DNA of 64,000 nucleotides from Xiphydria camelus. Its lineage: Eukaryota; Arthropoda; Insecta; Hymenoptera; Xiphydriidae. The notes below the pieces were generated by a model, which saw only the letters and a program-made list of their open reading frames with translations, made no database searches and was not told where the DNA came from. A program made the translations under genes and the position numbers. Below, in pieces: positions 22,895-59,489 of this stretch (its first letter is position 1; each line of letters opens with the position of its first letter). Location of the stretch: the NCBI GenBank assembly GCA_963678675.1, contig OY783198.1, positions 10,860,580 through 10,924,579 of the forward strand. Direction: 5' to 3'.

Positions 22895-23983
22895 ATGGCG
22901 GCGCTCAAGGAAGTTTTATCATTGTACCAGACATTAAAACAAGAGTGGACCAAGCGTCCGAACAATTTGAAGAAATGTGGCGAGTTACTGAACCAGCTAA
23001 AAGTAAGCAATCTTTTAAATAGCCTGCACAATTTTTTCTTTGGGTGTTCCTTCAAAAACGAGCGGTCAACGTAACCTAACCTCTTTTTTCGCACTGTCAA
23101 ATTGAATTGTCATCATGCCCTAACATCAGAACCAATTTATTACAATGAGTGTTTCATCATTTTTTACCTATCAAATTTATTATCACGTATTCTTCACACA
23201 GGTTGGTCTGACTCACTTAATGTTCCTCCCTACATCAAACAGCACAGCGTCGCAAAAGGAACTGCTGATAGCCCGTAAGTCATCGACGTTAATCTCTCTT
23301 GAATTGATTCGTGGGAACATTAATCGAGCATCGTTACTGATAATCTTTGATCCCCAATTGTAGGTGACATTCTGGAAATCGGCGCGCAGTGGAGCATAGC
23401 CGTAGAAGACATACCTTCCTTTGAGCGTTACATGGCGCAATTAAAATGCTACTACTTCGACTATAAATGCGAGCTTCCAGAATCGGCCTTTAAGTATCAG
23501 TTGCTCGGTTTGAATCTCCTGTTTTTATTGTCACAAAATCGAGTTGCAGAGTTCCACACGGAATTGGAACTCTTGCCGTCCGATCAGATTCAATCAAACG
23601 TTTATATCCGACATCCCTTGAGCTTGGAGCAGTATTTGATGGAGGGCTCATACAATAAGATATTTCTAGCCAAAGGAAACGTGCCGGCCGCTTCATATAA
23701 TTTTTTCATCGATATTCTCCTCAATACTGTTCGTGACGAGATCGGAGCGTGTTTGGAGAACGCGTACGACAAGATCTCTCTGAAGGATGCTGCGAGGATG
23801 TTAAATCTGACGTCGGAGAAGGATACCAGAGCGTTTGCGGCCAAGAAAAATTGGACGCTGGCGAAAGACGGATACTTTCACTTTGGTATACCGAGTGAGA
23901 AGAAGTCCGAAGAGCCTATACCCAGTTCTGATTTAGTTACACTCACGATAGATTACGCCAGGGAATTGGAGATGATCGTGTGA
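22895..23983 (+). CDS. Rpn12: 26S proteasome regulatory subunit Rpn12 (PSMD8)
   Basis: Three exons, 22895-23002, 23202-23274 and 23364-23983, give 266 aa. The N-terminal half is a helical repeat region (LYQTLKQEW, then C-G-E-L-L-N-Q-L-K). It is followed by the conserved block [20 protein letters not shown]. The last 120 residues are a PCI domain with the [12 protein letters not shown] segment and the typical Y-D-K-I-S-L-x-D-A winged-helix stretch. Rpn12 is a lid subunit of the 19S particle whose incorporation completes lid assembly. Its start lies about 430 bp from the divergent eEF1-gamma start, so the two housekeeping genes probably share a promoter region. A possible ATTAAA signal is at 24065-24070. 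Confidence 0.95.
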
Positions 23984-24298
23984 TTCGATTTGATGGTTTT
24001 AGGAGCGTCTTTCTACTTTAAAATCGTTGCGTTGTGGTGTATATTTATCCATTTGTCAAGTCAAATTAAATCTACATCGATAATGTAAATTGCAGTGTAT
24101 TTGATTCTTCATTCCTGTAAGTTACTGATTTCAGTATGATCTTTACTTTCTCTACTGGTATTTTACATGAACTGGACAGTAAGGTAATGGCAAGCTATTG
24201 GTTTTATTTAGAATCGCTAACAATAATTATTATATCCTATGCTTTCGAGGATGGTGATCATAGGCGTACCTATGCGAAAGCGAGCGAGAATGCTGTAG

Positions 24299-24516
24299 GT
24301 ACACCCGTGCTCACGGAATCTGTCGCTGGTGACTTTTTTTAAATGTTATTTTTAAACGTACTAACCAATGATTAATCAATCCTCGTGCTTTCATTAACGA
24401 GAGTAGACGTCACCGTAGCTAATGAGGGCATGAGAATTAATTGTTCACTGGTTAGTACGTTTAAAAATAAGGTTTAAAAAAAGTCACCAGCGACAGATTC
24501 CGTGAGCACGGGGTAC
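24299..24516. mobile_element. Palindromic MITE, family A copy 1
   Basis: Inverted repeats of about 75 bp begin GTACACCCGTGCTCACGG on the left, with a close match on the right. A second copy is at 25351-25566. Beyond the right end the sequence again mirrors 24244-24260, so the palindrome extends outward with a short asymmetric interruption. It sits between the Rpn12 3' end and the ribozyme/Arp10 promoter. It has no coding capacity. Confidence 0.85.
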
Positions 24517-24561
24517 GATCACCATCCTCGAAATCACATGTATGTATGTATTAATGCCGCC

Positions 24562-24571
24562 AGGTGGCGCC
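24562..24571 (+). promoter_or_regulatory. Possible CTCF-type insulator motif
   Basis: The sequence AGGTGGCGCC matches the core recognised by insect CTCF. It lies between two independently transcribed genes and just upstream of a TATA box. A single ten-base match is weak evidence alone. Confidence 0.3.
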
Positions 24572-24629
24572 GACCTTCGACTCCACGGCTTTCGGCTTCT
24601 CGTTAGTGGTCCATCAACGGGCAAGTTTC

Positions 24630-24637
24630 TATATAAG
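24630..24637 (+). promoter_or_regulatory. TATA box upstream of the hammerhead motif
   Basis: TATATAAG lies in otherwise GC-rich sequence. Transcription starting about 30 nt downstream, near 24660, would put the hammerhead ribozyme within about 10 nt of the RNA 5' end. Arp10 starts translation at 24959, so the promoter could belong to Arp10 or to an independent retroelement-like unit. Confidence 0.5.
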
Positions 24638-24670
24638 ACCGCAACTGCCCGTCTATCACCGAGGACCACA

Positions 24671-24740
24671 GAGCGTCTAAGGCAGGAGTCGGCCTAGCCT
24701 TACTGACGAGTCCACAGGCCGACTCCGGGACGAAACGCTC
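24671..24740 (+). ncRNA. Hammerhead self-cleaving ribozyme (open helix III)
   Basis: All parts of the hammerhead consensus are present in order. Helix III is GAGCG (24671-24675) with CGCTC (24736-24740), plus the U24676-A24735 pair. The predicted cleavage is after C24677 in the G-U-C triplet. Helix I is TAAGGC (24678-24683) with GCCTTA (24697-24702). The core CTGACGA is 24703-24709. Helix II is GTCC (24710-24713) with GGAC (24728-24731), including the conserved G10.1-C11.1 pair. GAAA is 24732-24735. Loop I (24684-24696) contains GGAGTCGGCCT and loop II (24714-24727) contains its exact complement AGGCCGACTCC. Hammerheads are known in Penelope-like elements, retrozymes and insect satellites. 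Here I see only one copy, with no flanking reverse transcriptase. Confidence 0.88.
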
Positions 24741-24958
24741 CGCCGATAAGATGGCGACCACATCCTTTTCGCCACACATTACGGAATAGTGACGCTATCT
24801 GTATTCCAATTGTCGCTCCTGTCAAATAATTTAGGTTAGTGGAACCACTCGTGATTTACAGTCATTTACCTCGTACATACACGAATATTTTTATGTTTTA
24901 CACATCGTAAAAAGACAACATTCGCTTTGCAAGTCGAAAAATTCATATACGAAAAGAG

Positions 24959-27170
24959 ATGTTGCGTTATGAAGGCGTAAGGTACATCTCCGACAAGCAA
25001 ATCGTCGTTCTGGACATCGGCAGTGCGTACACGAAGTAGGTAAATCGGAAACGAATCGCTTATCCGTACGTAACGAAATTATTTTATTCCGTTCAACATC
25101 AGATTCGGTTATGCTGGAGAAGTGACACCACGTGGCATCATAAAAACGGAGATCAAATGTCCCGAAACGAGAGAAATTCGAAAGATTTTCGAATACAAGG
25201 ATACCGACGACTTGTACCAACTTCTCGTGGAATTCGTCCACGCGTTGTTCTTCAGGTAACTTTTCATTTCTCGAGACAACAATGCTCTACATATAATGTA
25301 TATGATATACATGGGACTTCCACGCTACTTCAACCACTGAAGAAATGAATGTACACCCGTGCTCACGGATTCTGTCGCAGGTGACTTTTTAAAATGCAAT
25401 CTTTAAACGTACCAGCTAATGAACGATTATATCTCATACTTTTATTAGCTACAGTGACGCTTGCCCTGGTTAATGAAAGCATAATAATTAATTATTCATC
25501 TTTTGGTATGTTTAAATATGACATTTTGAAAAGTCACCAGCGACAGAATCCGTGAGCACGGGTGTACCTATCACCAAAAGATCAAAAGATCAAGTTATTC
25601 GAGTAGAATAATTCTACCAAATTACAAACCAATCCCCCGTAAATCATTTTTCCCTTTATATTTGAGGGGGTCAGAAGCCAAGGGGTCCAAGTAGAAATAC
25701 AAGTTTTCCGAGATACTCCACATTAAAGTATTCTTGTTCTTTAAAAATACCTGCAATTTTCCTTTGCCTCAAGTGTATAAGGTGTATGAATAGTTCATAC
25801 AGCTTATATATTTGAGGCAAAGAAATTGCAGGTATTTTTAAAGAACAAGAATACTTTAATGTGGAGCATCTCGGAAAACTTGTATTTCTACTTGGACCCC
25901 TTGGCTTCTGACCCCCTCATTTAATGAGTAAAAAGAATATTTTGCACAAAGTTACATTATAAAACTCACTTGATTTTTTAAATGGAAGAGGGTCTGTAAT
26001 TTGATAAAATTGTTGTATTCATAGAACTTGATTTTTATACATATTTTTTCTGAGTGGCTGAAGCAGTCCTATATAATTTTTTTTTCAATATTCACAGACA
26101 CGTAGTGATCAGTCCCAAAGATATAAAAGTCGTGATATTGGAGTCGCTGTTGACGCCAACGCAATTCAGAGATACCCTTGCCAAAGTGATGTTTCGACAC
26201 TTCGAGATTGGCTCTTTAATGATACTGCCATCCCACTTGGTGACGATAAGTACGCTCGGCACGGATACGGTGTTGGTCCTGGATGTCGGTTATCGAGAGG
26301 CCACTGTTATTCCTGTTTTTAAGGGTGTCTCGATACTGAAAGCATGGCAGGCTCTTCCACTGGCTGGCCAAGCGGTGCACGAGTAAGTCGGATTGTCTTA
26401 ACGACCTTCGGGATGTGCAGTTCTTGGTGGAATTAGCTGACGACACGGATCCTTCCCTTTCAGATGCATCAAAAAAGACTTGAAAGAAGAGATACCAGAT
26501 CTGGATATATCGGAAAACACGATCGAGGACATAAAAGTAAGAACGTGTTTCGTAACGACGTTAAAACGCTCTAGCAAATTAGGAACGGAAAGCGCTCCCG
26601 CTCCGCCGCCGTCTGTTAGCTATCCCGGAATAAGAACTATTAACATTCCTGGACGCGCCAGAGAAAGAGCATTCGAGGTCCTCTGGGAGCGGGACAATGA
26701 TAATCTCAGTATACCCACGATGATCTTGGATGCGATAGTAAAGGTATTCGATTACATGATTTATCGCACTGTTTCCCTACCAAATCTTTCTAAATATCGC
26801 GATCGTCACAATAATTGATATTCTTTCGATACAGTGTCCGATAGACACGAGACGTCTCTTGGCTGAAAATATCCTACTTATCGGCGGCACGACGATGGCC
26901 ACGGGTTTCGCGGCTCGTCTCAACTCCGAGCTGCTGGTTTTGCTGAAGAGTGACTTGTATTCGGAGAAGCTGAAAATAAGTACAGTCAAGTTTCACACGG
27001 CGCCCAGCAAGGCAAATTATACCGCGTGGCTCGGCGGCGCGATATTCGGCATCGCGGATCTGCCCGCGCGGTACCTCACGAAAGAGAATTACTTGAAATT
27101 CAATAGAGTGCCTGATTGGGCTAGTCTGATCGATAATCAGAAAGATGATTTCATGAAGTATAGCATTTAA
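24959..27170 (+). CDS. Arp10: Actin-related protein 10, dynactin pointed-end subunit
   Basis: Five exons, 24959-25035, 25103-25255, 26098-26382, 26464-26743 and 26835-27170, give 376 aa with every phase matching. The actin fold begins with the phosphate-1 strand VVLDIGSAYTKFGYAGE, which is restored only by using the donor inside GAAGTAGGT. A second nucleotide-site strand reads TVLVLDVGYRE, and the adenosine-site strand is LLIGGTTMATGF. The C-terminus WLGGAIFG matches the actin W-I-G-G-S segment. Arp10/Arp11 caps the pointed end of the Arp1 filament in dynactin, the dynein cofactor. Intron 2 contains two palindromic MITEs. The 5' leader may include the hammerhead at 24671. It is convergent with eIF3F. 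Confidence 0.93.
25351..25566. mobile_element. Palindromic MITE, family A copy 2
   Basis: This has the same termini and size as 24299-24516, in intron 2 of Arp10. The arms start GTACACCCGTGCTCACGG and are about 75 bp long. Arms within a copy are more alike than the centres of the two copies. Confidence 0.85.
25664..25918. mobile_element. Palindromic MITE in Arp10 intron 2
   Basis: Arms of about 115 bp (25664-25778 and 25802-25918) are near-perfect inverted repeats beginning TGAGGGGGTCAGAAGCC, around a short spacer. It would fold into one long hairpin. It is unrelated in sequence to the adjacent family A MITE. Confidence 0.85.
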
Positions 27171-32193: not shown

Positions 32194-35100
32194 ATGCCGC
32201 AGAAACTGGGAAGAGGACATGGAAAGCGAAGTGGCAGAGTACCTCATAAACGAGACAATGCAGATAAGAAACAGTTTTTCGGTAGGTTTGAAATGATTTT
32301 GACCGTTCCAAAATTTTATATTACTATCGTAAAACCTTAACTTAAAAATTTAACTTAACCTAACATATTTCTAACCTCACTTAACAATTACACGACGCAC
32401 GTAGTAGCCTTTATTAACATGACCACTCGCTTAACCCGAACAAAATTGAATTCATCGGTTAAATCTCGAATAACACGACTTCTTAACACATTCACCCGGT
32501 TACAGTGATTCCACAGCGACTCACCTTTGGTGATATGACTATTGAATCGACTACGGTTGAACGGTATGAGTAGTTCTTGTTTTGCCATGAAGGACTGATC
32601 AAATTCAGCCTCCATTGCAAAACGATAAGATTCGCTCGAATCTTCATGTATGGATATGAATTCCAATAAAGTTTCTTCACTTAAAGTGTATAGGTCATAA
32701 TTGAAGAGTGTAATTAAATAACGTTCTAAGTGCCAAAATGTAAAAGTATTAGATATAATTTTTAATGTAGTCTCAGTGCCATGCCCACATTAACTCTTAT
32801 AACGTTCTAAGTGTAATAATACAATTTAATAGTAACGCTACTCTCTAAAAAGATGGCATGTGTTCCAAGTCTGGCAGTGAATTTCGCGAATAATGGTCTA
32901 AGTGCCAAACACGTTGTCTCTACACTTATTCACATAACAGCGTTGTGACCGCGACTTTGCACAGATAGAAAAACGCAAAAAAGTATGTAAGTGCATGGTC
33001 CCAAAAGACTTAGTGTGCAAGATGATGATCGCAAATGCAAGGCAAATTCAATCATTCGTGGTAACCATGATGGAAAAAGAAGACTTTTATGGTTTTAAGA
33101 GAGCTTGTGACACTTACTTGAACACACAGAAAGTTAACATCAGCAAGATCCAATGGGTAAAAATAGAAAAAGAAAATCCTGGGAAAATTCGTGTACGAGA
33201 AACCTTAAATGAAATGGAAGACTGGAAAGTTGTCAACGTTTTGAAAAAAAGGAGTCACTCTAGATCGCTTAAGGCCAGGGCCTGGTTTAGACGGCCGAAA
33301 ATCAGCGGTTTTTAGGGAGCGTTTTTAGGGAGGGTTTTTAGGGAGGAAGGAGATAACTGATCGAAACACGGTTTTGGGGATATTATTTTATATATTTTAA
33401 CTTCAAAAAAAAAATTTTAGTGACCAGCTACAACGCATTATAGACTAAGTTATAGGCAGATTCGTAGAGCGCCTCGGCGTTGGAGTTCCTCGATGGCGTA
33501 CACGCTAGCGCCCCCTATTTTCATATAAAATGAAAAAATGATTTAAATTATTATTTTTCATGTTTTTATCTACCATGTGAACTAAAAAAAGCTATAAAAA
33601 GTTTAAAATTCTGAATGCCTTGAAGTGCCGAAGGAAAAAGCTACTTTTTGAAAAAGTAGCTTTTTCCTTCGGCACTTCAAGGCATTCAGAATTTTAAACT
33701 TTTTATAGCTTTTTTTAGTTCACATGGTAGATAAAAACATGAAAAATAATAATTTAAATCATTTTTTCATTTTATATGAAAATAGGGGGCGCTAGCGTGT
33801 ACGCCATCGAGGAACTCCAACGCCGAGGCGCTCTACGAATCTGCCTATAACTTAGTCTATAATGCGTTGTAGCTGGTCACTAAAATTTTTTTCAAAAAGT
33901 AGCTTTTTCCTTCGGCACTTCAAGGCATTCAGAATTTTAAACTTTTTATAGCTTTTTTTAGTTCACATGGTAGATAAAAACATGAAAAATAATAATTTAA
34001 ATCATTTTTTCATTTTATATGAAAATAGGGGGCGCTAGCGTGTACGCCATCGAGGAACTCCAACGCCGAGGCGCTCTACGAATCTGCCTATAACTTAGTC
34101 TATAATGCGTTGTAGCTGGTCACTAAAATTTTTTTTTTGAAGTTAAAATATATAAAATAATATCCCCAAAACCGTGTTTCGATCAGTTATCTCCTTCCTC
34201 CCTAAAAACCCTCCCTAAAAACCGCTGATTTTCGGCCGTCTAAACCAGGCCCTGGCCTTAAAAAAAATTAATCTTCCACACCTTCCTACAGTTTCCCGAA
34301 TATCTGAGGAAAAGAAGCAAAATATATGTGAAATGTTTAACTACTTACCCAAACTTGAACATAAAACTTTTTTTTCAGAACCTGATAAATACTACTTAAA
34401 CTACATGGCACTTAGAACATTATTACTGTTACTTACTGATGGACTTAGAACGTTCTTAATATTTAGTTTTGATTTTTCTTTAACTTTTTAATTTGAACAT
34501 ATTTCTTTTGTTTATTGTAAATTTTCAGTATTCTTGTCCATAAAGTAGAAGACCAAAAAGTATATTTTATTTTATGTTAAAAAATAAAAGCAGTGTTACT
34601 TTAAATTTAAATATCCCGGGTTCCACTTTTTGGCACTTAGACCATAATTGAATTACACTCTTCAATTATTGTTGCTGGGTATACATCTAATTTTTTAGTC
34701 TTTCTGAGCTCATATCGATGGAGGTTCACTTTAACTGTTCAAGAAGCACATGCCGCAAGTTTCAACATTTCCCTCGTAAACTTCACCTATTGTTCTTTCA
34801 GATCATGACGATAGAGTACCTCGTGGCAACAGAGGCTCTCGGCCACGAGTATCTTTCAAAACTGCGCGCGATGGTAGAATCGGTCGAAATAGGAATCTGC
34901 AACTTGCTTTCAAACTTCACACGGATGACGATGTGGACATGTCGTCGGACTTTGATTCCAGAAGGATTCAATTCAGAGGTGGTGGAGTTCGAAGAGCGAT
35001 CAGGTATGTAATTTAATGATAGTCAGAATATTTTTGACCTTAGAAATATAGGCTGTACATTTTTTCGATGTTAGAGGCGGAAGGAACAGCCCTGCTCCAT

Positions 35101-44890: not shown

Positions 44891-45202
44891 ACCGTATGTC
44901 CGCGATCATTTGAACCATAGGAAAATTGCGAGTTTTGCATGAGCACCCCTTTGGGTCTCCTTGTCCAATAGAATCACCGGAGAAGCGTGAATGCGCATGC
45001 GTAGTCATCCGCGAGTGATCGATAACCGATCGAGTTATTTCGATAACCGATTTGAACTTGCTGACACGCCATACTCGCGGATGACTACGCATGCGCATTC
45101 ACGCTTCTCCGGTGATTCTATTGGACGAGGAGACCCAAAGAGGTGCTCATGCAAAACTCGCAATTTTCCTATGGTTCAAATGATCGCGGACATACGGTAC
45201 AT
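44891..45202. mobile_element. Palindrome array unit 2
   Basis: The same family and orientation-independent palindrome as unit 1, separated from it by about 65 bp. The arms are about 140 bp and the centre (around 45020-45060) differs from unit 1. Confidence 0.85.
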
Positions 45203-45516
45203 ATGTCCGTGATCATTTGAACCATAGGAAAATTGCGAGTTTTGCATGAGCACCCCTTTGGGTCTCCTCGTCCAATAGAATCACCGGAGAAGCGTGAATG
45301 CGCATGCGTAGTCATCCGCGAGTGTGGCGTCGTCAGCAAGTTCAGATCGATTATTTCGATAACCGATCTGAACTTGCTGACGACGCCACACTCGCGGATG
45401 ACTACGCATGCGCATTCACGCTTCTCCGGTGATTCTATTGGACGAGGAGACCCAAAGGGGTGCTCATGCAAAACTCGCAATTTTCCTATGGTTCAAATGA
45501 TCGCGGACATACGGTA
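45203..45516. mobile_element. Palindrome array unit 3, almost perfect hairpin
   Basis: It abuts unit 2 directly. The arms are nearly perfect to the centre near 45358, with the innermost repeat TCGTCAGCAAGTTCAGATCG facing its complement. It is the best preserved copy. Confidence 0.88.
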
Positions 45517-45519
45517 CTA

Positions 45520-45645
45520 TGCATGCGCATTTACGCTTCTCCGGTAATGGTTCTATTCTATTGGACGAGAAGACCCACAGGGGTGCTCATGCAAAAAACT
45601 CACAATTTTGCTATGGGCTGTTTGATCGCGAACGTACGGTACATA
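45520..45645. mobile_element. Palindrome array half-unit 4
   Basis: Only the right arm of the family is present (CGCATTTACGCTTCTCCGG through GATCGCGAACGTACGGTAC), so the array is three and a half units. It ends about 130 bp before the Ly6 gene start codon. Confidence 0.75.
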
Positions 45646-45777: not shown

Positions 45778-46873
45778 ATGAACAAAACGTACGGGTGGTG
45801 TTGCGCCTTTTTAATCGTCGCTACTTTATCGTTTAGTGAGTTTGAACGAATTGGCGGTTGGCGTGATATAGAAATCGGAAAAAATCGTTTCATACAATAT
45901 TGTTTACTTCCTCAGGCAACGCCCTCGAATGCTATGTGTGTAAGGATCAAGAAGGTAATATTCAGAAATGTTTGAATACCATAAAGACCTGCGAGCAAGG
46001 AGAAGATGTGTGCCTGACTGAGATCAAATGGGGCAGTAAGTTGATAACAATTTATTTTAAAAAATACGTAGAGAAATTTTGAGTTGGAGCCCAAGTCGTC
46101 ATAGATAACTTGTGATATTGTTACCTCTTCTGCGATGATTTATTGAAATGTGGAAAATTATACACAATACAATTAACAACGATTACAATCATCGATAACA
46201 AATTGATGTGGGAGTAAGTTTGCAATAGCTATCAGAATTTGAAGATGTAATTATAAGAACCCAAAACTTGGCAGTAAATACGTTGGTAATGTACGTTATA
46301 TCGCAGGTGTCTGACAGCATTGTAAACCTTTTTGTTGAAGCTATCAACCAATTTACTCTTACACCCACTACACTCATAGTTATGAAATTTCCTGATTTAA
46401 CACATAATTGATTTGTCTCAAGTTCTTGTCATGTTTGCACATAATGTTTAGATATTTCTATCAGAGCCATTATGGTATTAGTGAATCCAAAGCCTTTAAC
46501 TCAATGTTATATATTCCCCAGGTACTCCTTACTGGTCGCAAGGAGCTAAAAAACAATTTTATGTCTCCAAGCGTTGCTCCACTAAAAAGCGATGTGAGAG
46601 GATAAGGCAAAACAATATGCCTGACTGTACTCACCTTTGGTACCAAGACTGGAAGTGTTCGGAGTGCTGTCAGGGTGATAGATGCAACTACTACATCATT
46701 GTAAGAACCCCTGAATCTTAATTAAGATACAAACATTCAAAATATTGGAATAAAAAAACTTATATAGTGCCTTTTCTTAATTTCAGTCTGGAGCAAGTAG
46801 CAGTAGTGTAAATCTTTTAATAACGTTATCTCTCGCACTCATTCCTCTCCTTGGAGTTAGCAAGGTGCAATGA
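45778..46873 (+). CDS. Ly6/uPAR-domain GPI-anchored protein (quiver/coiled-like)
   Basis: Four exons, 45778-45835, 45916-46035, 46522-46700 and 46787-46873, give 147 aa. The N-terminal 20 residues form a signal peptide. The mature part starts ALECYVCKDQEGN and carries the three-finger Cys pattern, ending with the signature C-C-Q-G-D-R-C-N. The C-terminal exon encodes a small-residue omega-site region (SGASSSS) followed by a hydrophobic tail, as for GPI attachment. Insect members act in septate junction formation or modulate channels. The exact orthologue (possibly coiled/CG2813-like) is inferred from memory and uncertain. The final exon plus 3' UTR is tandemly duplicated just downstream. Confidence 0.88.
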
Positions 46874-47374
46874 AAAACTGGAACAAATGCAACGGTGTTC
46901 AAAACATCAGATCATGAGAATTTTACAATAGGTAGCCTTTTTTTACTATGTTGTAAGAATATCGATGGATATCATACATATTTTATCTGTAGACATTTAA
47001 TTTCTTTTAACTATAAGTTTAATACGACACGTATTTGTGGAAAGTATGTGGCAAGTGTGAATTGTGTAATCCGTCCAATGCTTGGAGCAAGTAGCAGTAG
47101 TGTAAATCTTTTAATAACGTTATCTCTCGCACTCATTCCTCTTCTTGGAGTTAGCAAGATGCAATGAAAAACTGGAACAAATGCAACGATGTTCAAAACA
47201 TCAGATCATGAGAATTTTACAATAGGTAGCCTTTTTTTACTATGTTGTAAGAATATCGATGGATATCATACATATTTTATCTGTAGACATTTAATTTCTT
47301 TTAACTATAAGTTTGATACGACACGTACGTGTAGAAAGTATGTGGCAAGTGTGAAATGTGTAATCCGTCCAATG
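46787..47374 (+). repeat. Tandem duplication of the Ly6 terminal exon and 3' UTR
   Basis: A 294-bp unit occurs twice head-to-tail, at about 46788-47081 and 47082-47374, with only scattered substitutions. Each copy contains the GPI-signal exon through TGA plus about 205 bp of 3' UTR. The second copy lacks the splice acceptor because the junction replaced TTTCAG with CCAATG, so it cannot be spliced in directly. Confidence 0.9.
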
Positions 47375-54560: not shown

Positions 54561-55181
54561 ATGAGTAACCGCAACCACGTGGCCGAGACTGCGAGCGGAG
54601 AGAACAAGCGGAAGCAGAACTCCTCTCCTCCGAGTAAGTTGACCAAACTGCCGAGAACGTTAAACAGTCAGCAAGGAATCCTAACATGCGAGGCCTTGGA
54701 CAAATACTTCAAAGACTTTAGGAGAGAATATGGGTGCGAAAACAGAGACCCAAACGCAAAGCCTAACCTCAGTAAGGCGAGACGCGGCCGCTCTAGCTCC
54801 CTTGACACGGGGCTAAGAGAAGCCCACCAAGAATCGTCAAATACGTACAAAAAGCACAAGCCCCCCGAGCTACAACCCAGCTCACATAATAAGGAAAATG
54901 TCGCTAGCACCTCCGCAGCGGAGCCCGGATGGATACTGCCCAGAAAATCTAACAAGAAGCGGCACCCACAGAGAGACAAAGTGAGCTCACACGAAGTCAC
55001 AAACCGGTTCGCCGAGTTGAGTGACTCCGAGGACACCGATGCGGATTTGCCGAACATTACCAATCACACACCGAAGCAAGACGTACCCAAAAAGGACCCA
55101 ATAATGCGGGAAAAGGCTACGAAGTCACTACCGATACGAGTACGTAGCGTAAAAATAAGAGATAGCATCGCTACTCACTAA
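54561..55181 (+). CDS. Jockey ORF1, N-terminal part
   Basis: A 206-aa basic, Ser/Lys-rich protein ends in the segment NRFAELSDSEDTDADLP, which is typical of the disordered N-terminus of Jockey-clade ORF1. In related elements this continues without a stop into the RRM-like and zinc-knuckle region. Here TAA at 55179-55181 is followed after one base by the ATG of the next frame. That is either a frameshift mutation in ORF1 or a genuine stop-restart arrangement. Confidence 0.75.
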   Translation: MSNRNHVAETASGENKRKQNSSPPSKLTKLPRTLNSQQGILTCEALDKYFKDFRREYGCENRDPNAKPNLSKARRGRSSSLDTGLREAHQESSNTYKKHKPPELQPSSHNKENVASTSAAEPGWILPRKSNKKRHPQRDKVSSHEVTNRFAELSDSEDTDADLPNITNHTPKQDVPKKDPIMREKATKSLPIRVRSVKIRDSIATH

Positions 55182-55182
55182 C

Positions 55183-56151
55183 ATGGAGGTCCCGAAAGCC
55201 GCATTCCATCTTAAACAAGAAATCGATGCGGACAATGTGCCAATCACCACAACCGACACTGAAACATACAACCTAGTCATCAACATCCTCAAGACCAAAG
55301 GTAAGCAGTTCTACACATATACACCGAAGAACTTGCGGAACAAGACATTGGTACTAAAAAGAATAAGAGGTGACTTCAACGAGGAAGACATCAAAGCGGA
55401 AATTGAGGATCTAGGCCTAACCAATGTAAATATAACTAAGGTAGACAAACTCGTTTTTAACAAAGGCAAAGAGAACAGCTACTCGCACTTCCTAGTACAA
55501 CTCTCGCACGACAGCACGCAATCGGAACTTACAAAAACGAAATCACTAGCTTACCAAAGAGTCAGATGGGAGCACCTGCAAAAAAAAGCGATATTCCAAT
55601 GCAGAAAATGTCAGCGGTTTGGCCACGCAAGCCCAAACTGCAACCTCCAATACAGGTGCGTAAAGTGCAGCGAGTCGCACGCTCCAGGCGAGTGCAAAAT
55701 TAAAGCGGGGTCTGGGAAAGAATCTCTAAAATGTGCTAACTGTGGCATGAGAGGACACCCCGCGTCCTATAAAGGATGCCTTTACTATAAATCTGCCATG
55801 AGTTACATTAAAAATAGCAAAAAAACTAAAGCAGAAGCAGTAAATCAAAACCTAAAGAAGATCGCCAAGTCAGTCAGACCAGGACTGTCATATGCGGAGG
55901 CTGTATCCCCGATGGAACCCAAACAGCACAGAGACGGCAGAGAAAGGCATTTTCAGCAAGCACCTCCGACGCAGGATAATCAACCTCAACGTCCAGGACA
56001 CGAGGCACCTGAATGGATCACTGGACTCAAAAAAGAGATCATGGAAGGGGTCAGCCAACTGATTAACAACGTCCAAAACCAAGCAGCTGACAACGCATCT
56101 AAGATAGAAGCCCTCTGCTCCGCCCTGGGCTTCGATTTCCAACTCAGCTAA
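55183..56151 (+). CDS. Jockey ORF1, C-terminal nucleic-acid-binding part
   Basis: A 322-aa frame. Residues about 25-125 correspond to the RRM-like/PRE_C2HC region. Three zinc knuckles follow: C140-x2-C-x4-H-x4-C153, C159-x2-C-x3-H-x4-C171 and C184-x2-C-x4-H-x6-C199. It is an RNA-binding, gag-like protein that packages element RNA. Its TAA stop overlaps the ORF2 ATG (TAATG at 56149-56153). Confidence 0.88.
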   Translation: MEVPKAAFHLKQEIDADNVPITTTDTETYNLVINILKTKGKQFYTYTPKNLRNKTLVLKRIRGDFNEEDIKAEIEDLGLTNVNITKVDKLVFNKGKENSYSHFLVQLSHDSTQSELTKTKSLAYQRVRWEHLQKKAIFQCRKCQRFGHASPNCNLQYRCVKCSESHAPGECKIKAGSGKESLKCANCGMRGHPASYKGCLYYKSAMSYIKNSKKTKAEAVNQNLKKIAKSVRPGLSYAEAVSPMEPKQHRDGRERHFQQAPPTQDNQPQRPGHEAPEWITGLKKEIMEGVSQLINNVQNQAADNASKIEALCSALGFDFQLS

Positions 56152-59100
56152 TGGCGAACTTAAACAACAGTACTCAGCGTATCCCCGCAGATAGACAAGG
56201 TAACACTTATGTTAACCAGCAAAAAATTAAAATGGCGGCAGTGAACATCAATTCGATGATTTCACATCAACGTAGATTTCATCTCCAACACTTTATTGTC
56301 GAAAATAACTTGGATATTACTTTAATATCAGAGACCAAACTAAACGCGAAACACAAAATCAGGTTTAAAGGGTATACGGTAATTAGAACAGATCGCCCAG
56401 ACTCACACGGTGGAGGGGGCACAGCCATCGTAATTAATAATAATCTCAATTTCTCGGCTATAACTTACCCCAACTCAAAGCGAAATAAAATATTAGAGTA
56501 TTCCGTCATTAAAATAAACGTTAGTAACCACAAAAGCCTATATTTAATTAACATATATGCCTCGCAAAGGTCTAAAGTTAAGAAAGACTTTTTGGAAGAA
56601 CTTAACCACCTGTTCACAGCTCTTAAGCTCAATCAGAGAAATAACCTTTATATAATTGCCGGAGACCTAAATGCAAGACATACAAGATATGGAGACCGCT
56701 CAGACGAAGAACGTGGAAAACATCTCGTGGAATGGGAGCAGGATAAAGCGCCCCAGTATAGAGCAAAAATTTACATAGCCTCAGAACCCACGTTCACACC
56801 TGCGCAAACTTTTCTAGACTTGGGTATAGCGCACGAGGACATCCACATTTCCAACTTAGTGAATGGAAAAATTCCAACAGCAATGTACGACAGCGACCAC
56901 CGAGCACTAATGATTACCAGAGACTTAGGCACGGACCAAGTGCAATGCCCAACGATGGACAAAAGTATGCGTTTCAATTACAAAGCCACAAAGTGGCATA
57001 ACTTGACGCAGTACATCACCAGGAAACACACGTCAAAGATTCCGGACAACAGAGATCTATCGATAGCAGAGATTGAAGGAGCCTTAGTAACCATCACCAG
57101 CACAGTACAAAATGCAATCGAGCATACAGTCCCTAGACATAAAGAGTTTGATAACACGCAAAAGTATGTCACTAAAAAAATCAGAAAACTACAGAAATAT
57201 AAATCACGACTTCTCACCATGATCAACGCCCAAAGGATAAAGGACCCATGGCAACGCTCGCGGCTTACAATATACACTAAAGAACTACTACAGATGGTTA
57301 AAAATAAAATAATTCGAGAATTATCAATAGCCCAGCAAAAACATTGGGAAAATCTATGCAAGAAGATCGATTACCGTAATAGCGAGAAATTCATGCCCAC
57401 AATCAACAGAATTTTCCGTCCAAAGGCCAACATGGAACTAGCGGACATCCACATCGACACAAACGATAACACCATCCTTAACAACGCGGGAGCCATCCTT
57501 ACAGACATCCCTAGGCTCAACAACAAATACGTATTCACAGATCCGATAATGAAACTCAACGTTATTGGAGCATTCTACGAGACAATCAACTCGCCACGTC
57601 ATCTCAACACGAATACGGAATTCAGAAGGATAGTTGAAGAAAAAGTGGGCGCCGTAAAAGAAAAATTCGATCTCGATAGAACACTAGGGAGCTGTCACAC
57701 AGTGTTCTCCAACTCGAATCGGGCCACGAATCCCGAGGACCCACAAGACTCCTATAAGTACTTCACCAACATAAACGAAGTTTCAACAATAATAAAACGT
57801 ATGCCGAATAAAACATCAAGCGGCATTGATCGGATCCCGCTAGTTGTTATAAAACACCTGCCGGCAGGGATAATCAGAGACCTCACGATAATTATTAACA
57901 ACTCGCTGAATCACAGTTTTTTCCCAGACGGCTGGAAAACGGCGTTGGTAATTCCCATCTTGAAAAAGGACAAATCGCCAAATGACCCGTCCGGTCACAG
58001 ACCAATTAGTTTAATGCCTAACTTCAGTAAAGTGTACGAAACTGTCATCAACATAAACATCTCGACACTCTGCAGCAGAAACAATATCCTACCAAACAAC
58101 CAATTCGGTTTCCGACGCGGACTCTCCACCACACATGCCATTAACAAGTTCCTGTCAGACGTGAATAAGGCACTACTGGAAAACAATTTAATTGGCGCAA
58201 CGCTAGTGGACCTCGAAAAGGCATTCGATTCGGTTTGGCTCGATGGGCTCCTATATGTCTTAACTGAAAAACACTTCCCAGCCCCTCTCATCAACCTCAT
58301 ATGGGACATGGTGAGGGGCAAGAAGTTTAAGGTCACCAACGGCAGCTACACATCTTCGAAAACGTTCAGTATAATGGAAGGACTGCAACAAGGCACAGTC
58401 AACTCACCATGCCTTTTCTCCATCTATACGGCTGATATACTGAACTCCTTCGGGGCCAACACTGCACCAGATATCCACTCGATCGCATATGCAGACGACA
58501 CAGTCTGGTACGTCGTGGGAAGACGACCCCCATTAATTCGCGAGAAGCTGGAGCTACTAATCAACAACGTTAATGATCACTATGCCAAGTGGAATCTCCG
58601 GGCCAATCCACTCAAGTGTGAAACCATACTGCTACGGAGGCCATACAAATTCCTTGCCGGAAACCAAAACAAGAATTTGGGTGCTTTCCTGATTAATACG
58701 ACCGTTCTTGGAGCCGATACACAAGTCACGATCCCTACGAAGAAAATGGTGAAATACCTCGGTATGAACATAGACCAGCTCGCTCGATGTACAAAGCACA
58801 CAGACATCCAAATTGTGAAAGCTAAAAACAGGTTTAAAGCACTCGGAAGGCTTTTCAAAAACAAGTACATCAATAAAAGAGCAAAAGTTATTTGCTACCT
58901 ATTGCTGATCAGACCGCTACTAACGTATGCGGCAGCCGCCTGGTGGAATCTCAGCGCCTGCCAGGTGGAAAGCCTTCGAGTCTTCGAGAGAAACTGCCTG
59001 CGATCCTGCCTGAATATGCACCGATCGGAACATACCCAGTACCAACACCGAGTCAGTAATAGAGCGTTGTACAATACTGCAGACATCAGCAGAATCGATC

Positions 59101-59489
59101 TCTTCATACTGCGACTAACCAGAGATTACTTTGCGGGCCTGAAGGATCACGAAAACAGTATACTGAACGCACTTAGCATCGTGAACCCATATGCAGCAAA
59201 GGCAGCCGCTCGCCTTGGTTACCCACAGCCGCAGATGTTTACACAGTGTGACCATCTGGGAATCATACAAGATGCCAACAACGTACCACTAATTTACCAC
59301 GCGGAAAGGCACAAATTCGATAAAGCAATCACGCTCCCCGATGATAGGACCCCACGGTACAAATATTCACGAGCCATCCCGCTAAGGGACTTCATCGACG
59401 ATGGCAGACTCCGCCCAAAATATTGGTGGCTTAACCATTCTTCCAGGCACATTCCGGAGCTGATAGCTCGCCTCGAGACTGGCAGCTGA
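56151..59489 (+). CDS. Jockey ORF2: endonuclease and reverse transcriptase
   Basis: An uninterrupted 1,112-aa frame. Residues about 28-255 form an apurinic/apyrimidinic-like endonuclease with N32, E61 (ISETKL), the GDLNARH strand and a C-terminal SDH motif. Reverse transcriptase spans about 530-830 with P-I-S-L-M-P, N-Q-F-G-F-R-R-G, LVDLEKAFDSVW and the catalytic YADD at 780-783. The C-terminal region includes the thumb but no RNase H I could recognise. No internal stops or shifts are seen, so the protein could be active. Translation probably depends on the overlapping TAATG. Confidence 0.94.
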   Translation: MANLNNSTQRIPADRQGNTYVNQQKIKMAAVNINSMISHQRRFHLQHFIVENNLDITLISETKLNAKHKIRFKGYTVIRTDRPDSHGGGGTAIVINNNLNFSAITYPNSKRNKILEYSVIKINVSNHKSLYLINIYASQRSKVKKDFLEELNHLFTALKLNQRNNLYIIAGDLNARHTRYGDRSDEERGKHLVEWEQDKAPQYRAKIYIASEPTFTPAQTFLDLGIAHEDIHISNLVNGKIPTAMYDSDHRALMITRDLGTDQVQCPTMDKSMRFNYKATKWHNLTQYITRKHTSKIPDNRDLSIAEIEGALVTITSTVQNAIEHTVPRHKEFDNTQKYVTKKIRKLQKYKSRLLTMINAQRIKDPWQRSRLTIYTKELLQMVKNKIIRELSIAQQKHWENLCKKIDYRNSEKFMPTINRIFRPKANMELADIHIDTNDNTILNNAGAILTDIPRLNNKYVFTDPIMKLNVIGAFYETINSPRHLNTNTEFRRIVEEKVGAVKEKFDLDRTLGSCHTVFSNSNRATNPEDPQDSYKYFTNINEVSTIIKRMPNKTSSGIDRIPLVVIKHLPAGIIRDLTIIINNSLNHSFFPDGWKTALVIPILKKDKSPNDPSGHRPISLMPNFSKVYETVININISTLCSRNNILPNNQFGFRRGLSTTHAINKFLSDVNKALLENNLIGATLVDLEKAFDSVWLDGLLYVLTEKHFPAPLINLIWDMVRGKKFKVTNGSYTSSKTFSIMEGLQQGTVNSPCLFSIYTADILNSFGANTAPDIHSIAYADDTVWYVVGRRPPLIREKLELLINNVNDHYAKWNLRANPLKCETILLRRPYKFLAGNQNKNLGAFLINTTVLGADTQVTIPTKKMVKYLGMNIDQLARCTKHTDIQIVKAKNRFKALGRLFKNKYINKRAKVICYLLLIRPLLTYAAAAWWNLSACQVESLRVFERNCLRSCLNMHRSEHTQYQHRVSNRALYNTADISRIDLFILRLTRDYFAGLKDHENSILNALSIVNPYAAKAAARLGYPQPQMFTQCDHLGIIQDANNVPLIYHAERHKFDKAITLPDDRTPRYKYSRAIPLRDFIDDGRLRPKYWWLNHSSRHIPELIARLETGS

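Follow-up and report, generated by a model that had tools for sequence, protein, structure and literature searches.

Retrozymes have been reviewed as two groups, plant elements that combine long terminal repeats (LTRs) with type III hammerheads and animal elements that combine a non-LTR organisation with type I hammerheads (PMC7761336, PMC11722881), the former review mentioning insect elements with type III hammerheads as being in preparation. The plant elements are described as noncoding, flanked by 4-bp duplications and provided with a primer-binding site (PBS), a polypurine tract (PPT) and hammerheads in their LTRs, the hammerhead being blocked in the circle, with units of 697-776 bp in Jatropha (PMC4918200). 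For NbRZ1, from a relative of tobacco, the ribozyme is reported to strip the 5' portion from transcripts that the LTR drives in plant cells (PMC12029980). In insects, a structure search for the architecture of certain type III hammerheads with loop-loop pseudoknots (discussed below) returned none in the hymenopterans examined in that work (PMC7936874). Within the open-licence literature we found no published LTR retrozyme from an animal.

Here we analyse a 64,000-nt stretch of the genome of the hymenopteran Xiphydria camelus, hereafter the window. Its segment 24555-24776 is probably the solo LTR of an LTR retrozyme, i.e. of a non-autonomous, TRIM-sized LTR retrotransposon in which a promoter is followed by a putative type III hammerhead. 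The element appears to be organised in a way reported until now from plants; it is thus a good candidate for an animal counterpart of the self-cutting mobile RNAs of plants. LTRs, a PBS, a PPT, 4-bp target duplications and a hammerhead in each LTR that spans the site can be read directly from its copies.

The hammerhead motif and its competing folds

The predicted type III ribozyme occupies positions 24671-24740 of the forward strand and comprises helix I (24678-24683/24697-24702, 6 Watson-Crick pairs), the CTGACGA core (24703-24709), helix II (24710-24713/24728-24731, 4 pairs), the GAAA core (24732-24735) and helix III (24671-24676/24735-24740, A-U plus 5 pairs), with the cleavage site predicted 3' of C17 (GUC) at 24677 from its placement relative to the core. 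The CUGANGA, GAAA and NUH elements and three helices, with helix III open, are all present, so the core and helix layout given in a preliminary description of this DNA stands as an intact type III motif with helices of 6, 4 and 6 bp. A scan of both strands with minimum helix lengths of 4, 3 and 3 pairs returned no other match in the window.

The covariance models recommended for checking the motif gave a different picture. No Rfam family reached its gathering score anywhere in the window, and under permissive settings the highest-ranking hammerhead match, to the type I model RF00163, scored 21.9 bits where 34 are required (E 0.0046 in a search of 261 bases) and placed stem I in the wrong register; formally, this is the sub-threshold score that the preliminary description had named as an argument against the motif. 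In our judgement, the Rfam models fit loops of 13-14 nt poorly and the LTR evidence presented below outweighs the score; the type III class was assigned on the core and helices, the Rfam score being a detection criterion and not a defining feature. In 1336 Mb of simulated sequence (one strand, dinucleotide composition of the window) we found 64 loose matches, 5 middling ones and 1 as strong as that at 24671-24740, which corresponds to a chance rate for so strong a motif of ~1e-4 per window and ~0.5 per 357-Mb genome, so the motif alone would not rule out chance. Taken with the LTR evidence, we consider the hammerhead to be real, with cleavage as a prediction. A pattern search of viral contigs identified at least 120 loci, in which 169 hammerheads were detected, 157 of type I and 12 of type III; the exact loop complements of the latter are 1-2 nt long, and the exact ribozyme stretch had 0 matches in the viral contigs.

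Loop I-loop II pseudoknots are predicted for about 40% of hammerheads, and shortening the pseudoknot of a tested type II hammerhead from 6 to 4 pairs made cleavage ~20-fold slower (PMC3088659). In the present motif, the exact 11-nt complement reported previously is indeed found between 24685-24695 and 24716-24726. In the constrained hammerhead fold, the helix I hairpin (24678-24702) consists of UAAGGC/GCCUUA followed by AGG/CCU (24684-24686/24693-24695) and the loop AGUCGG (24687-24692), and the helix II hairpin (24710-24731) of GUCC/GGAC, a C-G pair, GG/CC (24717-24718/24725-24726) and the loop CCGACU (24719-24724). The two apical 6-nt loops are exact complements. The remaining complementary bases are paired inside the stems, and since only 6 of the 11 lie in the apical loops, the case for an exceptionally long contact is weaker than proposed, while the complementarity itself is exact over 11 nt. 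The minimum-energy fold is a competing 11-bp hairpin (24685-24726) in which 24685-24695 pairs with 24716-24726, so that helices I and II cannot form. Its folding energy is -31.8 kcal/mol; the hammerhead reaches -15.8 in its bare form and -22.7 with extended stems, the loop-loop kiss being left uncounted in these values. The 11-nt duplex alone (-22.3) cannot form in full within the hammerhead without opening stems. The complement is best read as a predicted 6-bp loop-loop kiss that competes with a blocked hairpin, and the earlier suggestion of a switch, in the sense of two competing folds, is a physically plausible hypothesis.

A dispersed LTR element and its copy upstream of Arp10

The motif had been taken for a single copy. 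However, 42 matches came out of a search of its own 357-Mb genome (window in contig C22), in which 40 of 1578 candidates were scored; the number of copies is thus a minimum, and close copies are favoured among those sampled. All but one of the 42 match at 100% (rounded), 39 of these 41 beginning at the same base, window position 24555; all 42 places were taken as 30 loci (L129-L158). Alignment upstream sets the start of the LTR 28 bases further left (TGTAGCGGCCCG), which gives a 250-bp LTR (family A) that starts with TGTAGCGG and ends with CACA. The PBS TGGTGACCCCGACGTGAT, which we take to be a match to tRNA-Trp, is found as TGGTGACCCCGACGTGATC one base (T) after the 5' LTR, and the PPT (GGGAGGGAGTAC or GGGAGTAC) lies directly before each 3' LTR. 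A second family (B) has an LTR of 214 bp and a primer site of the same kind; its last letters are AAA versus CA in family A.

Equal 4-bp flanks, read by eye, border all 27 insertions in which both outer LTR ends are intact (16/16 elements with two or three LTRs, 15 of family A and 1 of family B, and 11/11 complete solo LTRs), but these are not all independent, as some share flanks. L129 (three LTRs) and L145 (two) have common flanks with the same GGGA duplication, which we read as a duplicated region with the copy expanded or shortened in one of them; an inverted solo LTR in L151 shares GTCT with the adjoining family B element, and a solo LTR in L152 shares CTGT with an adjoining inverted, damaged copy. 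That damaged copy, the window copy, L141, L142 and L155 (3' LTR only) were left out of the count. In L141 (1984-2916) and L142 (1996-3112) the elements are hybrids: the 5' LTR belongs to family A and the 3' LTR to family B, and the flanks are unequal, which may reflect exchange between the families. The LTRs within an element are identical or nearly so. One apparent 5.1-kb autonomous copy (L149) was rejected, as it is the same short element interrupted by a nested 4.2-kb insert, in which no stop-to-stop frame exceeds 166 aa; one fragment of this insert is presumably a Harbinger-like transposase. Three LTRs are present not only in L129 but also in L147, and tandem units have been reported among plant retrozymes as well (PMC11722881).

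The spacing from hammerhead to hammerhead is 609-653 nt in 13 of the 16 multi-LTR elements (609-610 nt in L143, L144 and L148; 631 nt in seven elements; 637 nt in L130; 652-653 nt in L129 and L145), the others being 687 nt (L151, family B), 813 nt (L147) and 4885 nt (L149, with its insert). All five units extracted have a GC content of 0.59-0.61. Three of them, folded as circles, are more stable than 60 dinucleotide shuffles each (z from -4.2 to -5.4), and in each of the three the hammerhead strand is predicted to sit in the blocked hairpin. In the internal regions of 14 elements the longest ATG frame is 37-69 aa in 13, with L147 (122 aa) as the exception; by these frame lengths the element appears to be without coding capacity.

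Of the 53 LTR stretches taken, 51 span the site, and every one of these has the hammerhead motif, with all 70 bases unchanged in 43; the remaining 2 are partial and do not include it. Changes occur in L130, L148, L150, L152 (three changes, damaging helices III and II), L155, L156 and both family B LTRs of L151, the latter with one difference, at 24695, that costs one pair. Among the indel-free family A LTRs, which are the best-scoring copies, 37 of 41 keep all 70 bases, and substitutions are about twofold fewer in the ribozyme (6/2870) than in the rest of the LTR (36/7380; Fisher p 0.057). The six changes are G to A or C to T, and no compensatory change was found among these 41 LTRs plus L148 and L156, where the six and two further changes break a pair or make a G-U. 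Between families A (L140) and B (L142), compared within this one genome, the hammerhead is alike at 70/70 positions, versus 73 of 104 aligned bases upstream (70%, with 46 gap columns) and 29 of 34 downstream; exchange between the families could have caused this identical block.

The window copy (24555-24776, forward strand) is a family A solo LTR without the first 28 of the 250 bp; it ends with GCCACA, is 100% identical to positions 29-250 of the L140 LTR and has unequal flanks (TTAA and CATT). An inverted fragment in L152 (after 1563) contains approximately the first 28 LTR bases, exactly what the window copy lacks, and a common breakpoint is possible. The previously noted TATA box is found in the LTR as TATATAAG at 24630-24637, with TACATAAG in the corresponding position of family B, and transcription would start near 24658 (TCA, 28 nt past the box). 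The LTR lies between a PSMD8 frame (23432-23983) and Arp10, on the same strand as the latter, whose ATG at 24959 is 219 nt past the motif, close to the ~220 nt given before. The Arp10 identity also holds, with 4 of 7 matched PDB sequences being Arp10/Arp11/dynactin chains (best 1.7e-11) and the other 3 weak (E 0.002-0.005). Among the best 120 of 1744 matches of the PSMD8 frame, the top one is from Athalia rosae (90%), and the organism-named ones with at least 80% identity are, as we take the names, Hymenoptera. The motif, complement, TATA box and Arp10 neighbourhood of the preliminary description are confirmed; its single-copy status was wrong.

Several other features of the window were observed. 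A short frame with a good start context (AAGATGGCG) at 24751-24789 begins just past the ribozyme and crosses the LTR end. A foldback/MITE-like element (24240-24536) sits shortly before the LTR; it has a relative at 77-80% in the Arp10 region (~25351-25576), and pieces recur in several of the fetched loci (98-100%). In a LINE-like element (54561-59489), two frames without a Pfam match are followed by one of 1112 aa that has endonuclease and reverse transcriptase domains, and two-copy tandem repeats of 243, 317 and 294 bp (93-99% matches) are found at 33645-34135, 44895-45521 and 46789-47374. The tRNA scan of the window returned 0 hits.

Proposed mechanism and alternative explanations

We propose that RNA polymerase II starts the transcript near 24658, as the position of TATATAAG predicts, and that cleavage would remove ~20 nt from its 5' end. 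The hammerheads in two LTRs would cut the transcript into GC-rich units of ~630 nt, which would be ligated into circles and then copied and inserted by a gypsy-type reverse transcriptase, probably of the CsRn1 clade, primed by tRNA-Trp. The 4-bp duplication is compatible with such a mobiliser, and the primer site presumably is as well; a search for the primer-site letters in two papers found none. Elements of the CsRn1 clade are described as primed by tRNA-Trp and as flanked, in most cases, by 4-bp duplications (PMC2582038, PMC3630058). In the cutting fold the 11-nt complement would provide the 6-bp kiss between loops I and II, and in the resting RNA it would form the blocked 11-bp hairpin.

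It could be argued that the element is an ordinary TRIM in which the 70-nt block is conserved for some other role, for instance because packaging, dimerisation or reverse transcription depends on an RNA hairpin there, and in which the hammerhead is inactive or incidental. The minimum-energy fold is that hairpin, favoured over the hammerhead with extended stems as long as the kiss is uncounted, and a single conserved sequence with no covariation cannot separate the two folds. We nevertheless consider this unlikely, because the hairpin has no need of CTGACGA, GAAA and helices I and II, yet most copies keep all 70 bases, these are common to both families, and the place behind the TATA box and the LTR plan agree with plant retrozymes. 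Much less probable still is a chance likeness to a hammerhead: despite the sub-threshold Rfam result and the simulated expectation for a genome of this size, the complementary 6-nt loops add a calculated factor of ~1 in 4096, and the motif sits in the LTRs of a retrozyme-like element and is identical between families whose upstream regions have diverged.

The preliminary description had offered two interpretations, a self-trimming leader of Arp10 mRNA or the promoter-ribozyme end of an unrecognised retroelement. The latter is borne out by an LTR with a TATA box and a hammerhead; the former, dropped as the main reading once the 42 own-genome matches emerged, is unsupported as the origin or role of a motif that belongs to a dispersed element. 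Co-option of this solo LTR as an Arp10 promoter, with the hammerhead trimming the leader, would fit the common strand, the TATA box 329 nt before the ATG and the intact ribozyme, but it is highly improbable given dozens of near-identical copies elsewhere, as expected of a mobile element, the 222 bp at 100% to other copies, which suggest a young insertion, the cut leader, which would be uncapped, and the upstream ATG at 24751, which opens a short frame. We propose that the solo LTR is a passenger with no sign of an effect on Arp10; it may incidentally affect any Arp10 transcripts initiated within it.

Returning to the LTR retrozyme, a bolder extension, which we put forward tentatively and regard as somewhat doubtful, is that animals have LTR retrozymes of their own, mobilised by tRNA-Trp-primed gypsy elements, and that the 11-nt complement was selected as a two-state device. 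Since the mobiliser would be a tRNA-Trp-primed gypsy lineage, such elements would have been assembled independently of the tRNA-Met elements of plants. In the device, the kissing hammerhead would cut the nascent RNA, and the blocked hairpin would then stop the ligated circle from recutting itself.

Relation to known systems

Small noncoding LTR elements with 4-bp duplications and many solo LTRs are known from Hymenoptera as ant TRIMs. By its description, PbTRIM differs from the present element in an LTR of 152-184 bp, a tRNA-Leu primer site and ATAT as the commonest duplication, and the main text of that paper contains neither "ribozyme" nor "hammerhead" (PMC3532108). The termite, fly and HDV-like hammerheads with loop I-loop II pseudoknots share with ours the type III class, the occurrence in insect genomes and a Watson-Crick loop contact, but are described with a longer helix I with an internal loop and an extra hairpin, and as isolated motifs in termite contigs (PMC7936874). 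The metazoan non-LTR retrozymes are likewise noncoding hammerhead retroelements of animals; however, they are characterised by type I hammerheads, units of ~170-400 nt, low GC and no LTR, PBS or PPT (PMC7229834), and the present element, with a type III motif, LTRs, PBS and PPT, falls outside that group.

The closest likeness is to the LTR retrozymes of plants, with which the element shares the noncoding LTR organisation, a hammerhead per LTR, PBS, PPT, 4-bp duplications and a predicted circle that holds the hammerhead blocked (PMC4918200), as well as type III hammerheads, units of 600-800 nt and GC above 55%. An LTR promoter upstream of the ribozyme, as in NbRZ1 (PMC12029980), is here predicted from the sequence alone. 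As far as the plant elements are described, the differences are the animal host, an LTR of 214-250 bp versus 300-400 bp, potential Watson-Crick kissing loops versus the usual non-Watson-Crick contacts, and a circular RNA that is here a prediction. The primer site, tRNA-Met in plants, is here presumably tRNA-Trp. As a concrete candidate for the insect type III elements mentioned in PMC7761336, the element could serve as an animal model in which to test the part of viroid-like circular RNA in retrotransposition, and an insect LTR retrozyme would break the division between plant elements with LTRs and type III hammerheads and animal elements with a non-LTR organisation and type I hammerheads.
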